Assembly: GCA_023667045.1 (NCBI GenBank) | Contig: JAMPAU010000001.1 | Location: 1,345,748 to 1,409,747 of the forward strand | Reading direction: 5' to 3' | Source: Ruminococcus flavefaciens | GTDB taxonomy: Bacteria; Bacillota; Clostridia; Oscillospirales; Ruminococcaceae | Length of the DNA stretch: 64,000 bases | Shown here: piece by piece, positions 12,183 to 20,965 of the stretch | Layout of the letters: the number at the start of each line of letters is the position of its first letter | Position numbering within the stretch: the stretch's first letter is position 1 | Notes under the pieces: model-generated | What the model was told of the DNA's origin: nothing | The model's database searches: none | Seen by the model: the letters and a program-made list of their open reading frames with translations, nothing else | Position numbers and translations under genes: made by a program

Positions 12183-12258
12183 GGGGGTTTAGCTCAGCTG
12201 GGAGAGCATCTGCCTTACAAGCAGAGGGTCACAGGTTCGAGCCCTGTAGTCCCCACCA
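12183..12258 (+). tRNA. tRNA-Val (anticodon TAC)
   Basis: A 76-base cloverleaf. The acceptor GGGGGTT pairs with AGTCCCC including two wobble pairs. The D arm is AGCTCAGCTGGGAGAGC, the anticodon loop CTTACAA sits on a TCTGC/GCAGA stem, and the T arm is CAGGTTCGAGCCCTG. CCA is encoded. Confidence 0.96.
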
Positions 12259-12263
12259 CATAT

Positions 12264-12340
12264 GGCCTGGTAGTTCAGTTGGTTAGAACGCTGCCCTGTC
12301 ACGGCAGAGGTCGAGAGTTCGAGTCTCTTCCAGGTCGCCA
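12264..12340 (+). tRNA. tRNA-Asp (anticodon GTC)
   Basis: A 77-base cloverleaf. The acceptor GGCCTGG pairs with CCAGGTC, the anticodon loop is CTGTCAC, the T arm GAGAGTTCGAGTCTC, and CCA is encoded. It starts 5 bases after tRNA-Val. Confidence 0.96.
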
Positions 12341-12458
12341 CTATATGAACTGAATAACTCGGAATGAGTTTCTTTTCACAGAGTACGTTAGGCGTTTGCA
12401 TTGTACGGAAATTATAACCGACCTCTGAGTTGTTCATATCATATGTTAAATATTAAAT
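12341..12458 (+). other. 118-base spacer inside the tRNA cluster with an imperfect inverted repeat
   Basis: The spacer begins atatgaactgaataactc and ends with the approximate complement gagttgttcatat, so the ends could pair (ATATGAAC / GTTCATAT plus AACTC / GAGTT). The interior shows no tRNA-like T loop and no open frame. It could be an RNA processing stem or a remnant of an insertion. Confidence 0.4.
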
Positions 12459-12534
12459 GCGGATTTAGCTCATTTGGTAGAGCGCCACCTTGCCAAGGTG
12501 GAGGTAGCGAGTTCGAGCCTCGTAATCCGCTCCA
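12459..12534 (+). tRNA. tRNA-Gly (anticodon GCC)
   Basis: A 76-base cloverleaf. The acceptor GCGGATT pairs with AATCCGC, the anticodon stem CCACC/GGTGG carries loop TTGCCAA, the T arm is GCGAGTTCGAGCCTCGT, and CCA is encoded. Confidence 0.96.
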
Positions 12535-12538
12535 GCAT

Positions 12539-12609
12539 GGCGCTATAGCCAAGTGGTAAGGCGTGGGTCTGCAACACCCTGATCCCCAGTTCAAATCTGG
12601 GTGGCGCCT
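12539..12609 (+). tRNA. tRNA-Cys (anticodon GCA)
   Basis: The acceptor GGCGCTA pairs with TGGCGCC, the anticodon loop is CTGCAAC and the T arm CCAGTTCAAATCTGG. CCA is not encoded (CTCT follows), unlike the other three tRNAs here. It is the last tRNA before the terminator. Confidence 0.93.
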
Positions 12610-12614
12610 CTCTC

Positions 12615-12650: not shown

Positions 12651-12744
12651 ACAATATTAATTCATCTGATTTGTGGCATTCTTTCTTTATTATAAAAAAG
12701 CAGGAGATTTTTATCATCTGCACTATCAAATATTTACAAGACCC

Positions 12745-12769
12745 CACCTCTTAGCGAGGTAGTTGACGA
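12745..12769. other. Short hairpin resembling an IS200/IS605-type end
   Basis: The text ccccacctcttagcgaggt forms an ACCTC/GAGGT hairpin and is followed by agttgac. The arrangement of a C-rich flank, small hairpin and AGTTGAC reminds me of right ends of IS200/IS605-family elements. No transposase frame lies nearby, so at best it is a remnant. Confidence 0.25.
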
Positions 12770-12777
12770 TAAATAAA

Positions 12778-12808
12778 AATCCCCTAAATAATTAGGGGAT
12801 TTCTTTTT
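12778..12808 (-). terminator. Terminator of the twin-peptide operon
   Basis: The perfect stem AATCCCCTAA / TTAGGGGATT has a 4-base loop. On the minus strand it is followed by TTTTATTTAT; on the plus strand by TCTTTTT, so it can work both ways. It lies just after the second peptide gene. Confidence 0.85.
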
Positions 12809-12810
12809 GC

Positions 12811-12870
12811 TTAACAGCCACAGTTTTTTAAAAGATTGCAGATAAGCTTGAAAAGTTCGTTACAGCACAT
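12811..12870 (-). CDS. 19-residue cysteine-rich peptide, distal copy
   Basis: The minus strand encodes MCCNELFKLICNLLKNCGC with stop TAA. A full AAGGAGG ribosome site lies nine bases before the ATG. Five of 19 residues are cysteine, and the centre (ELFKLICNLLKN) would make an amphipathic helix. The protein is identical to that of the neighbouring copy, although the DNA differs at three third-codon positions and in the stop codon. This pattern indicates selection on the peptide. A terminator follows. Function is unknown; secreted, membrane-active, metal-binding or toxin-like roles are all possible. No signal sequence or modification enzyme is next to it. Confidence 0.75.
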   Translation of the reverse strand: MCCNELFKLICNLLKNCGC

Positions 12871-12906
12871 ACCACCGTACCTCCTTATGTAAATTTTTCT
12901 GATTTA

Positions 12907-12966
12907 TCAACAGCCACAGTTTTTTAAAAGGTTGCAGATAAGTTTGAAAAGTTCATTACAGCACAT
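12907..12966 (-). CDS. 19-residue cysteine-rich peptide, promoter-proximal copy
   Basis: It encodes the same MCCNELFKLICNLLKNCGC, here with stop TGA and synonymous codons (AAT for AAC, AAA for AAG, AAC for AAT). GGAGG lies eight bases before the ATG, and a promoter with a perfect -10 lies about 45 bases upstream. The 36-base gap between the two copies holds the second copy's ribosome site, so both are probably read from one transcript of about 230 bases ending at the 12778-12808 terminator. It is too short for routine gene calling. No homologue is known to me. Confidence 0.78.
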   Translation of the reverse strand: MCCNELFKLICNLLKNCGC

Positions 12967-13008
12967 ATTCCGAACCTCCTTTATAAATTTCCCTCTTGGG
13001 ATATTTAT

Positions 13009-13037
13009 ATTATAGCACGGCTTTTTAATAAAATCAA
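13009..13037 (-). promoter_or_regulatory. Promoter of the twin-peptide operon
   Basis: On the minus strand TTGATT (13032-13037), 17 bases, TATAAT (13009-13014). It lies between the tspO stop and the first peptide gene, which makes the peptides an independent unit. Confidence 0.75.
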
Positions 13038-13059
13038 TACAAAAATAATGTCAGAAAAA

Positions 13060-13518
13060 TTAGTTAATTATGCATATTGCCACAGCAAGATACACAGCAA
13101 AGGCACTCCACAGCAGATAGGGTATATTAAGTCCGGCGGAGATTTTCCGCACTTTGCAGAACTGCATAATCATTACGCCGACCAGTATCAAAAGCACAAC
13201 CGCCAGTACAGCCGATATTCCAAGAAGTCTGAACCGGAAAAAAACTATACTCCATGCAAAGTTTACGGCAAGCTGTATGTTGTATACTTTCAGAGAGTAG
13301 GGTCTGCCGGAAGTGCTGACAAGATAGGCAGATATTCCCATGAGTGCGTACAGAATCCCCCATACCACCGGAAAGAATTTTGCAGGAGGGGACAAAGGCG
13401 GTTGTATGATTTCTGAATAGAATGCAGAAAAGTTTCCGGCGATGAGTGCCGAAACCGCCCCGACGAGTTCAGCGGTCACAACGAAAATCAGCAAATCCGT
13501 TAAATTAAATTTTTTCAT
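13060..13518 (-). CDS. TspO/MBR-family membrane protein
   Basis: A 152-aa protein with five hydrophobic helices and the family's Pro/Trp landmarks: QPPLSPPAKFFPVVWGILYALMG (split here as QPPLSPPAKFF and VVWGILYALMG), NFAWSIVFF in the third helix and PYLLWSAFAVYL near the end. TspO proteins bind tetrapyrroles and are linked to porphyrin handling and stress responses. The count of tryptophans is lower than in alphaproteobacterial TspO. AAGGAG precedes the start. It lies upstream of, and on the same strand as, the twin-peptide operon. Confidence 0.9.
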   Translation of the reverse strand: MKKFNLTDLLIFVVTAELVGAVSALIAGNFSAFYSEIIQPPLSPPAKFFPVVWGILYALMGISAYLVSTSGRPYSLKVYNIQLAVNFAWSIVFFRFRLLGISAVLAVVLLILVGVMIMQFCKVRKISAGLNIPYLLWSAFAVYLAVAICIIN

Positions 13519-13572: not shown

Positions 13573-14238
13573 TCACTCCAGCGGAAGCACGTTATTGAAT
13601 ACTGCATGGAATTTCACCGGAATGTGCTTGTCAACATGACATTTCCCAAAAAACCACTTTTCATACTGACACGTTTTAATAAGGTTCTCAAAGAATGCAT
13701 GAACTTCAATTCTTTCAAAAACGTCAACTCTGAGACAGTCTTTCAGTGATGACGGCGGTTCATGAGTAACTATGTAATCGACTTTGTTGTTATTGTTGGA
13801 AAGATTATTTAGGGCGTAAGTTATTTCCTCGTGGGTAGGCTGTTCACGCTCCCACCAGTTTTCGCTGTCGTGCCGGAACTCATAATCATGACTGTGACCG
13901 CCCCCGAATGCAAATATTTTTTTGTTTTCTATGGTATATATTTCGCCACGCATAAGATGAACTATATTTCCGGAAATTCTGTGTATTTTTCCGCCGTTCC
14001 ATTTTTCTTGCGGATAGGCTTCAAGCAGGTCAAAATTTTCGTGACAGCCATCAATAAAAGCAATGGTGTAGTCTTTGGCAGAAAGTTTTTTCAGATTTGA
14101 GATTTCAGCCTTTGAGCCGTTCCATATAAAGCCGAAATCTCCGCATATAATAAGTGTATCGCCCTTGCGGATTCTGCGGAAATCAGCCGACTTGAAAATT
14201 TCAATATCTCCGTGAGTATCGCCTGTTACATAAATCAT
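13573..14238 (-). CDS. Calcineurin-like metallophosphoesterase
   Basis: A 221-aa cytoplasmic phosphoesterase. The metal-binding motifs appear in order: GDTHG (residues 6-10), GDFG near 33, GCHEN near 64, THEPP near 157 and a final KCHVDKH in place of the usual GHxH. The fold hydrolyses phosphomonoesters, phosphodiesters or nucleotides, and the substrate is unknown. GGAGG lies eight bases before the start. It stands alone between tspO and the S11 gene, transcribed away from the latter. Confidence 0.88.
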   Translation of the reverse strand: MIYVTGDTHGDIEIFKSADFRRIRKGDTLIICGDFGFIWNGSKAEISNLKKLSAKDYTIAFIDGCHENFDLLEAYPQEKWNGGKIHRISGNIVHLMRGEIYTIENKKIFAFGGGHSHDYEFRHDSENWWEREQPTHEEITYALNNLSNNNNKVDYIVTHEPPSSLKDCLRVDVFERIEVHAFFENLIKTCQYEKWFFGKCHVDKHIPVKFHAVFNNVLPLE

Positions 14239-19132: not shown

Positions 19133-19219
19133 ATTACAAAAAGGTTACACAAAAAAATTAGGCTGTGCTTTGATATTATGGTACGGCTTTATTATTTTCA
19201 ACGAAAGGGAATGATAGAA

Positions 19220-20965
19220 ATGAAGCTTTATAAAAAAGTTCTTTCGGCTTTGATGTCGTGTGCATTTATAGGTGCAACGGTTATCTCGGACGGAGTGCCT
19301 CAGACAATCGCTGTGGATATTTCAGATGATTCTGTCGCTGATTTATATGATAACACAGAATCAGAAGAAAGTAAAGAGGTATCTGAAACAAATACTACCA
19401 ATACAACAGAAATAACAACAACTACTACCACAACTACTGCCAAAAAAACTACAACGACTACCACCACCACTACATCTACCACATCTGCCACATCTAAAGC
19501 TACCACAACCTCTACCACAACTACATCTACAACCACAACAACTACTACTTCCACTCAGACTACCGAACCGCCTTTCAGAGTATTTGATATATATAACGCC
19601 TATATGGGTTATACTACAACTACTGTAACTACTCTGCCGGAAAATCTCGACCCCGCACTTGTGCAGAGACAGGCAAAGGGTATTGACGTTTCTGCATGGC
19701 AACCGAATATTGACTGGAAAGAAGTAAAAGAAGCTGGTATTGAGTTTGCAATCATGAGAGCAGGCTACGGAAAATATATCTCTCAGAAAGACCCGACTTT
19801 TGATTACAATATGCAGGAAGCTCAGGCTAACGGCATTGCCTGTGGTGCTTACTGGTACAGTTATGCCACTGATGTCGAATCTGCAATACAAGAGGCTGAA
19901 GTCTGCTACTCTATAATAAAGGATTACGACTTTACATATCCGGTTTATTTTGATATTGAAGACCCCTCACAAGACTATCTCAGCACGGCACAGATTTCTG
20001 CAATGACAGACGCTTTCTGTTCCACTCTCGCCTCAAAGGGCGTGCGTGTCGGAGTTTACAGCTACACGACTTTCCTTAAAACAAAAATCTATGCAGAAGT
20101 CCTTGAAAAGTATGACGTGTGGGTTGCTAACTTTGACGTTTCAGCACCTTCGTACAGCGGAGACTACGGAATATGGCAGTATACAGCCAGCGGTTACGTG
20201 GACGGCGTACCGGGAGTAGTTGACCTTGACGTGTCATATGTCAATTATCCCTATATAATGTCGCCCGATACATACGTTGATACTCCAGCTACATCGTTCG
20301 ACCACACTATAAAGGACATAACCACTACTACTACTTCAAATTATCTTTACAAAGGCATAGACGTTTCAGTATGGCAGAATGACATTGACTGGAATGCAGT
20401 AAAGGAATCCGGAGAGGTTGACTATGCAATAATACGTGCCGGTTACGGAAAGTTTGTCACTCAGAAAGACGAAAAATTCGACTACAATATTACTACCGCC
20501 CAGAGTCTCGGCATAGACTGCGGTGCTTACTGGTACAGTTATGCTACTGACGTTGAGAGTGCTATAGAAGAAGCTAAGGCTTTCTGTGAAGTCATCAAAG
20601 GCTATAAATTTGAATATCCGGTTTATTTTGATATTGAAGACCCATGCTTTGATAGTCTCAGCAATGATGAAATACGTGCGATTACTGAGGCGTTCTGTTC
20701 ATACATGGAAGAACAGGGCTATTGCTGTGGTGTGACAAGCTATTCAAATTTCCTAAGAAACAAGCTCGGTGCGTCGTTCTTGAGCAAATATGCGGTATGG
20801 ATTGCACACTATAACGTAAGAAGACCAAGCTATGGCGGTTACTATGGAATGTGGCAGTACACAAGCACAGGTACGGTAGACGGCATAAACGGCACTGTCG
20901 ACCTTGACTATGCCTATGTTGATTACCCTGCACTTATGATTGAATGTCACCGCAACGGCTATTAA
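19220..20965 (+). CDS. Secreted lysozyme with two GH25 domains and Thr-rich linkers
   Basis: A 581-aa exported muramidase. A signal peptide (1-32) is followed by an almost pure Thr/Ser linker at about 57-115, the first GH25 domain at about 152-350, a short Thr linker, and a second GH25 domain at about 378-575. Each domain has the GIDVSxWQ start with the catalytic Asp, GAYWYSYATD, and YFDIED with the catalytic Glu. The family cleaves the MurNAc-GlcNAc bond. The start at 19220 gives the best spacing from AAAGGG and a clean signal peptide. The linker DNA is a dense ACN-triplet tract likely to vary in length. Confidence 0.93.
   Translation: MKLYKKVLSALMSCAFIGATVISDGVPQTIAVDISDDSVADLYDNTESEESKEVSETNTTNTTEITTTTTTTTAKKTTTTTTTTTSTTSATSKATTTSTTTTSTTTTTTTSTQTTEPPFRVFDIYNAYMGYTTTTVTTLPENLDPALVQRQAKGIDVSAWQPNIDWKEVKEAGIEFAIMRAGYGKYISQKDPTFDYNMQEAQANGIACGAYWYSYATDVESAIQEAEVCYSIIKDYDFTYPVYFDIEDPSQDYLSTAQISAMTDAFCSTLASKGVRVGVYSYTTFLKTKIYAEVLEKYDVWVANFDVSAPSYSGDYGIWQYTASGYVDGVPGVVDLDVSYVNYPYIMSPDTYVDTPATSFDHTIKDITTTTTSNYLYKGIDVSVWQNDIDWNAVKESGEVDYAIIRAGYGKFVTQKDEKFDYNITTAQSLGIDCGAYWYSYATDVESAIEEAKAFCEVIKGYKFEYPVYFDIEDPCFDSLSNDEIRAITEAFCSYMEEQGYCCGVTSYSNFLRNKLGASFLSKYAVWIAHYNVRRPSYGGYYGMWQYTSTGTVDGINGTVDLDYAYVDYPALMIECHRNGY

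Follow-up and report, generated by a model that had tools for sequence, protein, structure and literature searches.

Several described systems come close to the genes reported here in size, composition or layout. The staphylococcal PSM-alpha peptides are amphipathic, free of cysteine, exported by a dedicated ABC transporter and encoded by tandem ORFs on one transcript; bacterial metallothioneins are small, cysteine-rich proteins with CC and CxC pairs; and small type I toxins such as Ibs are wholly hydrophobic peptides of 18-19 residues that occur in tandem. To our knowledge, conserved proteins of 16-19 residues with a promoter and a terminator of their own have rarely been documented. The peptide family described here resembles PSM-alpha in its length of about 20 residues, its likely amphipathic helix, its lack of a signal sequence and its tandem ORFs on one transcript, but PSM-alpha peptides lack cysteine and act outside the cell, whereas the present family is cysteine-rich and sits mostly at one chromosomal site. 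It shares a high cysteine content, CC and CxC pairs and small size with the bacterial metallothioneins, but is much shorter, has a conserved hydrophobic face and no sequence relation to them that we found, and is a ligand by prediction only. With Ibs it has in common a size of 18-19 residues and tandem copies, but it is amphipathic rather than wholly hydrophobic and has no antisense promoter signal. At the level of the message, the closest parallel is the B. subtilis aprE leader, a 5'-terminal stabilising stem-loop according to a title cited in PMC3997798.

The window, i.e., the whole stretch of 64,000 nucleotides analysed, carries on its minus strand gene 1 (ORF1, 12907..12966, stop TGA) and gene 2 (ORF2, 12811..12870, stop TAA), both encoding MCCNELFKLICNLLKNCGC. 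Direct reading of the sequence thus agrees with the preliminary description, which had reported two consecutive minus-strand genes for one identical 19-residue peptide, and codon comparison reproduces its three synonymous differences between the copies, with no non-synonymous ones (row L173 of that comparison is the window copy). A GGAGG ribosome-binding site lies 5' of each start, at 12975..12979 for gene 1 and at 12880..12884 for gene 2 (both minus strand). The promoter and terminator said to be shared by the pair were likewise recovered by scan, the former as TTGATT-17-TATAAT with an extended -10 (TG before the -10) at 13009..13037 and the latter as a 13-pair intrinsic terminator at 12775..12804, both on the minus strand; the terminator is also terminator-like on the plus strand (12777-12802). 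The twin transcript would be about 233 nt long (13003-12771, both ends predicted). In a 601-base region three terminators were found against 0.3 in shuffles, and three promoter-like sites against 2.6, which is no excess. The twin genes are the only two peptide matches in the window's own genome. The location beside a tRNA cluster and tspO was also correctly described: four tRNA genes (Val, Asp, Gly and Cys, 12183-12610) run convergent with the twin genes and are incidental neighbours, and on the minus strand a TspO/MBR family gene (13060..13518; PF03073, E 6.7e-35) and a calcineurin-like phosphoesterase gene (13573..14238; PF12850, E 3.8e-4, its 20.9 bits falling short of the Pfam cut-off, 27) lie upstream, both of them conserved neighbours within the genus. 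Elsewhere in the window, at 19178-20965, a 595-aa ORF with two similar repeated domains after a long Thr-rich stretch is presumably lysozyme-like.

By comparison of genomes, the twin genes belong to a real gene family that changes in a coding pattern and occupies mostly one chromosomal site in Ruminococcus, and that is also present in some other members of the same order. Searches with the 19-mer gave matches at E<=10 in 17 of 60 genomes (its own included), all of the same genus and many of them partial. The pattern GGAGG-N4..9-ATGTGYTGY was found 97 times, in 66 of the 125 genomes of the genus, and the reversed pattern 13 times; some of the 97 are unrelated ORFs. From the matches of both kinds 60 stretches were chosen, not all matches being taken, and a motif filter retained 55 genes in 42 loci (41 of the 60 stretches plus the window); stretches such as L053, L054 and L073-L075 hold unrelated ORFs. 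Sixty further stretches, most of them taken from the region 3' of TspO or from sites with the hairpin pattern discussed below, contributed shorter forms such as MCNIWQIICELFKCCK and MCRNIWSMLCKLFGCC, and after removal of identical copies and motif filtering there were 82 gene instances for 61 distinct peptides of 16-22 residues. The filter missed a real-looking form, MCFRNIWSILCKLCGCC, in L226 and L228. R. flavefaciens ATCC 19208 has the form MCCNNIFKMLCELFGICCK (L144, on a contig shared with L101). A profile of the 61 peptides matched 79 of the 125 genomes of the genus (Ruminococcus / R. flavefaciens group) at E<0.002 and 85 at E<=0.05, the six in between being partial or doubtful; as the profile was built from the same genomes, the figure of 79 is a census rather than an independent test. 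Absence from related genomes, which the preliminary description had named as grounds for rejecting the gene, is contradicted by these 79 genomes. When named genomes were searched with a pattern covering the commonest forms, 31 stretches were returned: 28 carry the title Ruminococcus or R. flavefaciens, two only Clostridia or Clostridiales, and one Alistipes senegalensis. The contig with this last label (L162 / G310) bears a locus of Ruminococcus form, G310:C37 is classed in the same genus as the window and has a TspO 85% identical to that of the window, and the label is probably wrong.

Three tightly alignable groups of distinct coding sequences show the signature of purifying selection, with pN/pS of 0.13 in the NELF type (20 sequences), 0.06 in the 19-aa NNIW type (9) and 0.26 in the 18-aa type (13). 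The mixed-subtype groups MC16, MC17 and 'other' gave 0.63, 0.69 and 0.59 over all pairs, and 0.26, 0.11 and 0.11 for close pairs only. Variability is low at second and high at third codon positions in three coding-sequence groups; MC16 lacks the low second-position variability. Change at a neutral rate, another stated ground for rejection, is not seen in the three tight groups (0.06-0.26), and the proposal that the peptide is functional gains support from these values together with the genus-wide homologues. In none of 12 equal-length tandem pairs do amino-acid changes outnumber silent ones. One to four silent changes and no amino-acid change separate the copies in L055, L068, L071, L077, L085 and the window; the L203 copies are identical, and those of L086, L089, L090, L094 and L095 have diverged, L089 having three ORFs in tandem. 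The copies in L202 (G330, at 681 and 890) and L203 (G317, at 609 and 819) lie about 210 bp apart and each has a promoter and a hairpin, the second hairpin of L203 being weakened. As the twin genes of the window share one promoter, duplication has taken place in two different ways.

The peptides mostly follow the pattern M-C-(C)-[N/S]-[ILF]-[WF]-x-[LMI]-[LI]-C-x-[LM]-[FL]-[GK]-x-[CG]-C, in which a short amphipathic stretch is preceded by N or S and mostly followed by G, with flanking cysteines and one central cysteine; because the peptides were collected with a motif filter, part of this regularity of residues and cysteines is a selection effect. Sixty-six of the 69 distinct peptides were aligned by script on the central cysteine, which was not found in the three left out. 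Relative to it, I/L stands at -5 in 62, W/F at -4 in 62, L/M/I at -2 in 57, L/I at -1 in all 66 (partly by the script's own rule), L/M at +2 in 62, F/L at +3 in 65 and G/K at +4 in 63. The outer cysteine at -8 is present in 49 of the 66, the one at +6 in 50 and the one at +7 in 31; conservation of these flanking cysteines and of the hydrophobic positions is about equal. At 100 degrees all 66 peptides have a hydrophobic moment above the mean of their shuffles (mean z 2.4), and the mean z is negative at 160 and 180 degrees. Four or five cysteines are present in 63 of the 69 peptides and only three in 3, the length is 16-19 residues in 58 (the smallest form having 16), and the net charge is +1 or +2 in 62; in MCCKNIWNLLRELMKCCGSCC an Arg replaces the central cysteine. 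The N, S or E that precedes the stretch and the G that follows it look like helix caps, and the peptide as a whole resembles an amphipathic helix that is capped and bears cysteines at its centre and at either end.

These features bring the family near PSM-type peptides, since the hydrophobic moment and the pattern describe a short amphipathic peptide without a signal sequence; the members that Pfam and NCBIfam scans could take (at least 20 residues, or X-padded) gave no accepted match. An exported peptide of this kind, lacking a signal sequence and either acting on other cells' membranes or serving as a signal, would account for the length, the amphipathic pattern, the net positive charge and the tandem ORFs with their own ribosome sites. 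We consider it improbable in view of the many cysteines, of conservation rather than diversification, of the mostly single chromosomal site and of the neighbouring genes, among which clustering (with two neighbours put to Pfam) brought to notice no recurrent exporter or immunity gene beside the cassette. Clustered cysteines at about 20% or more of residues (four or five in 63 of the 69) give the family a composition like that of metallothionein-like metal peptides. No accepted match was obtained in Pfam, NCBIfam, PHROGs, PADLOC or PDB, in line with the earlier remark that no class could be named; most members lie below the tools' minimum of 20 residues, and one such scan was possible for 4 of the 61 peptides. 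A chance-level Pfam match, to the PARP12 winged helix (E 0.081, 13.2 bits, cut-off 27), was disregarded. Literature searches with exact peptide strings and, among the matches listed, by topic found no paper on the peptide. The catalogue of PMC11364881 includes ORFs from 30 nt up, and family members may be present there without a name.

An upstream element, CATTATTTTTGTATTGATTT (13031..13050, minus strand), which includes the -35 (13037-13032), was identified by window search and from 72 distinct upstream regions; it has a single match in the window at <=3 mismatches, with 0.05 expected. Across the 72 regions the columns CCA (75, 86 and 96%) and TTTTTGCATTGA are well conserved, an element resembling CCATTATTTTTGCATTGATTT spans the -35 and the bases 5' of it, the spacing between -35 and -10 is 17 nt in 68 and 18 nt in 4, T occurs at -23 in 72 of 72 and G at -2 in 94%. 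Since a TATAAT, TACAAT or TATGAT was the criterion for choosing the regions, conservation of the -10 itself is a selection effect. A pattern with CATTGATTT upstream misses the window, because TATTGATTT stands there, and is uninformative.

The transcript is predicted to begin with an RNA hairpin, UCCC-AAGA-GGGA (12990..13001, minus strand), which starts 7 nt past the -10 and whose stems vary on both sides in relatives. The commonest stem, UCCC/GGGA, is found in 42 of 74 leaders, plus longer versions, and other leaders have GUCC/GGAC, UUGUC/GACAA, UUGUCC/GGACAA, UUGUUC/GAACAA or UUGUUCC/GGAACAA in the same place, with loops of 3 to more than 20 nt. The two-sided stem changes and the variable loop length speak for a hairpin in the RNA rather than an operator in the DNA. 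In a shuffle test of strength only, the hairpins do not convincingly beat shuffles (mean score 11.7 against 9.2, with the observed median reached by 23% of shuffles). An automatic helix picker took another helix in 12 of the 74 leaders, including 5 of the 8 from outside the genus, and the expected hairpin in the other three of these (L291, L301 and L302). The loop is about 20 nt long (with CTCACTGCC) in L233, L234 and L287, which retain the UCCC/GGGA stem; L213 and L214 have an insertion of about 40 nt between hairpin and ribosome site, within which a second hairpin is possible. The pattern TATAAT-N4..9-TCCCRARAGGGA matched 48 times in 46 of the 125 genus genomes and not once when reversed. 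A peptide gene follows the hairpin in 29 of 30 loci from this pattern (the exception being L177 of G259; a match in G009:C2 was left out), which argues against a regulon-wide operator, and that candidate was rejected.

Like the aprE leader, the arrangement has a hairpin at the 5' end followed by the ribosome site; it differs in that the hairpin is tied to one peptide family in many species, and here its stabilising effect is predicted. At the gathering score Rfam reports only the four tRNAs in the window, with below-threshold matches alone in 12700-13060. If the RNA were the working part, as a small RNA with 5' hairpin and terminator in which the ORF matters less, the retention of the hairpin through two-sided stem changes would be explained, and the whole twin transcript folds somewhat better than its shuffles (z -2.1, with 6 of 200 as good). 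The codon-position variability in the three coding-sequence groups speaks against such an RNA, which we hold to be quite unlikely. The comparisons describe a self-contained cassette composed of the upstream element, a -35, an extended -10, the putative 5' hairpin, a strong ribosome site, an ORF of 16-28 codons and a terminator.

The same architecture was looked for beyond the genus, for which a first family-wide pattern of 12 bases was not specific. With the profile, 132 of 396 genomes of the family had matches at E<=0.5, most of them partial and chance-like; the architecture was present in 1 of 25 outside loci from this search (L116-L140), and the strongest match outside the genus in these genomes (E 0.0038) lacked it. 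In the order, 12 of 394 genomes had matches at E<=0.02, 10 of them outside the genus. In the family of G818, 8 of 200 genomes passed, including G818 and G856, which were both sources of the profile, and in the class 3 of 245 passed besides the window's own, none with the architecture. When the 44 outside rows with loci were checked uniformly for a short Cys-rich ORF with a ribosome site, 35 were negative and 9 positive, the latter representing 8 distinct loci (one seen twice), one in another genus of the same family and seven in another family of the order. Examples are MCNFNFDCSSMWQLICKLFGYGC, MCNFNFNCNSLWAMLCRMFGFGC and MFCFTGNNFNCGSIWEALCRYFGVGC. A promoter-like pair lies 41-51 nt from the ATG in 7 of the 8 and reads TTGAAA-17-TACAAT in three. 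The E-values of single loci are marginal for hundreds of genomes, and the case for members outside the genus is based on the shared architecture. With the window form or a pattern for the commonest forms as query, nothing was found in viral contigs, which were searched by pattern, or in phages and plasmids, which were searched by blastn, and a mobile element or phage gene was rejected on these empty searches.

The genomic neighbourhood bears on whether the peptide serves a particular protein. The nearest upstream ORF of at least 100 aa is on the same strand in all 42 loci and encodes TspO in 32, the phosphoesterase in 7 and others in 3, the phosphoesterase gene being present in 35 of the 42. 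A regulatory microprotein whose helix docks on one protein (TspO, the phosphoesterase or a distant enzyme) and tunes it, with cysteines that only stabilise the helix or sense the redox state, is the main rival to the reading developed below, and is possible though doubtful. The TspO and phosphoesterase neighbours speak for it, as does the about equal conservation of hydrophobic positions and flanking cysteines; in 10 of 42 loci, however, the peptide gene has no TspO beside it, and the eight loci outside the genus have other neighbours, without a conserved TspO. Of 91 TspO loci examined by script, 52 have the peptide within 450 bp, 3 are ended by the contig end and 36 gave none, although at least three of the 36 (L214, L226 and L228) do have it. 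TspO dependence as a general rule was rejected on these 91 loci and on the neighbours outside the genus. In L215, L216, L218 and L221 the whole cassette is absent and a terminator-like hairpin directly follows TspO, with no convincing profile match elsewhere in these genomes. Since it is missing after TspO in some species, the cassette is not essential across the genus, and this loss, together with the differing neighbours outside it, agrees better with a self-contained cassette that is passed on mostly vertically and sometimes lost than with an operon partner.

Downstream, the nearest ORF of at least 100 aa is on the opposite strand in 29 of the 42 loci, on the same strand in 9 and absent in 4, and no co-directional downstream gene is common to the 42. 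A cysteine-sensing attenuator leader peptide would suit a short Cys-rich ORF with a terminator immediately 3' of it, but with mostly convergent downstream ORFs, and with convergent tRNA genes following in the window, it was disfavoured and is barely conceivable. In L055, L059, L060, L065, L070, L072, L077, L080, L083, L092, L093, L102 and L107 the downstream genes, usually convergent, look like those of what we take to be an Rnf-type electron transport complex.

A type I toxin under antisense RNA control, as the size and tandem copies might suggest by their resemblance to small type I toxins, was also disfavoured. A consensus scan for overlapping antisense transcription found promoter-like sites in 6 of 80 gene regions against 11.5 expected from shuffles, and the mostly single chromosomal site and the lack of matches in phage and plasmid collections point the same way, making a toxin of this type very unlikely. 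Of the roles listed in the preliminary description, those related to membrane or metal are the ones favoured here, and those of toxin and signal seem less likely.

Our preferred reading, held tentatively and with somewhat less than even confidence, is that the peptide is well expressed, stays in the cytoplasm, rests on the membrane or on a partner and uses its thiols, perhaps holding metal. The coding pattern argues for translation, the promoter and leader for abundance, the absence of a signal sequence for a cytoplasmic location, the amphipathic pattern for binding and the cysteines for thiol activity. The 5' hairpin would protect the message so that much peptide is made, with tandem copies adding to the yield in some species, and removal of the initiator Met would expose an N-terminal Cys. 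The peptide would fold as a helix, remain in the cytoplasm and be seated by its hydrophobic side on the inner face of the membrane or on a partner. Its activity would reside in the thiol clusters, most likely with two or more helices joining to make a metal or thiol ligand, a step suggested by composition alone.

The best reading of these comparisons is a new family of bacterial microproteins, and it raises the question of what a tiny, cysteine-laden peptide does in anaerobic gut bacteria. The many species, the two-sided hairpin changes, the silent-site bias and the fixed promoter spacing make the family testable in cultured Ruminococcus flavefaciens. A bolder and rather unlikely extension is that minimal 'cysteine-helix-cysteine' housekeeping peptides are spread across a gut-bacterial order and made in bulk from stabilised messages, as a ribosomally made thiol or metal ligand at the membrane face. 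If true, these would perhaps be among the shortest independently transcribed conserved bacterial proteins, at 16 residues, and a role given elsewhere to non-ribosomal small thiols would be filled by a ribosomally made peptide.
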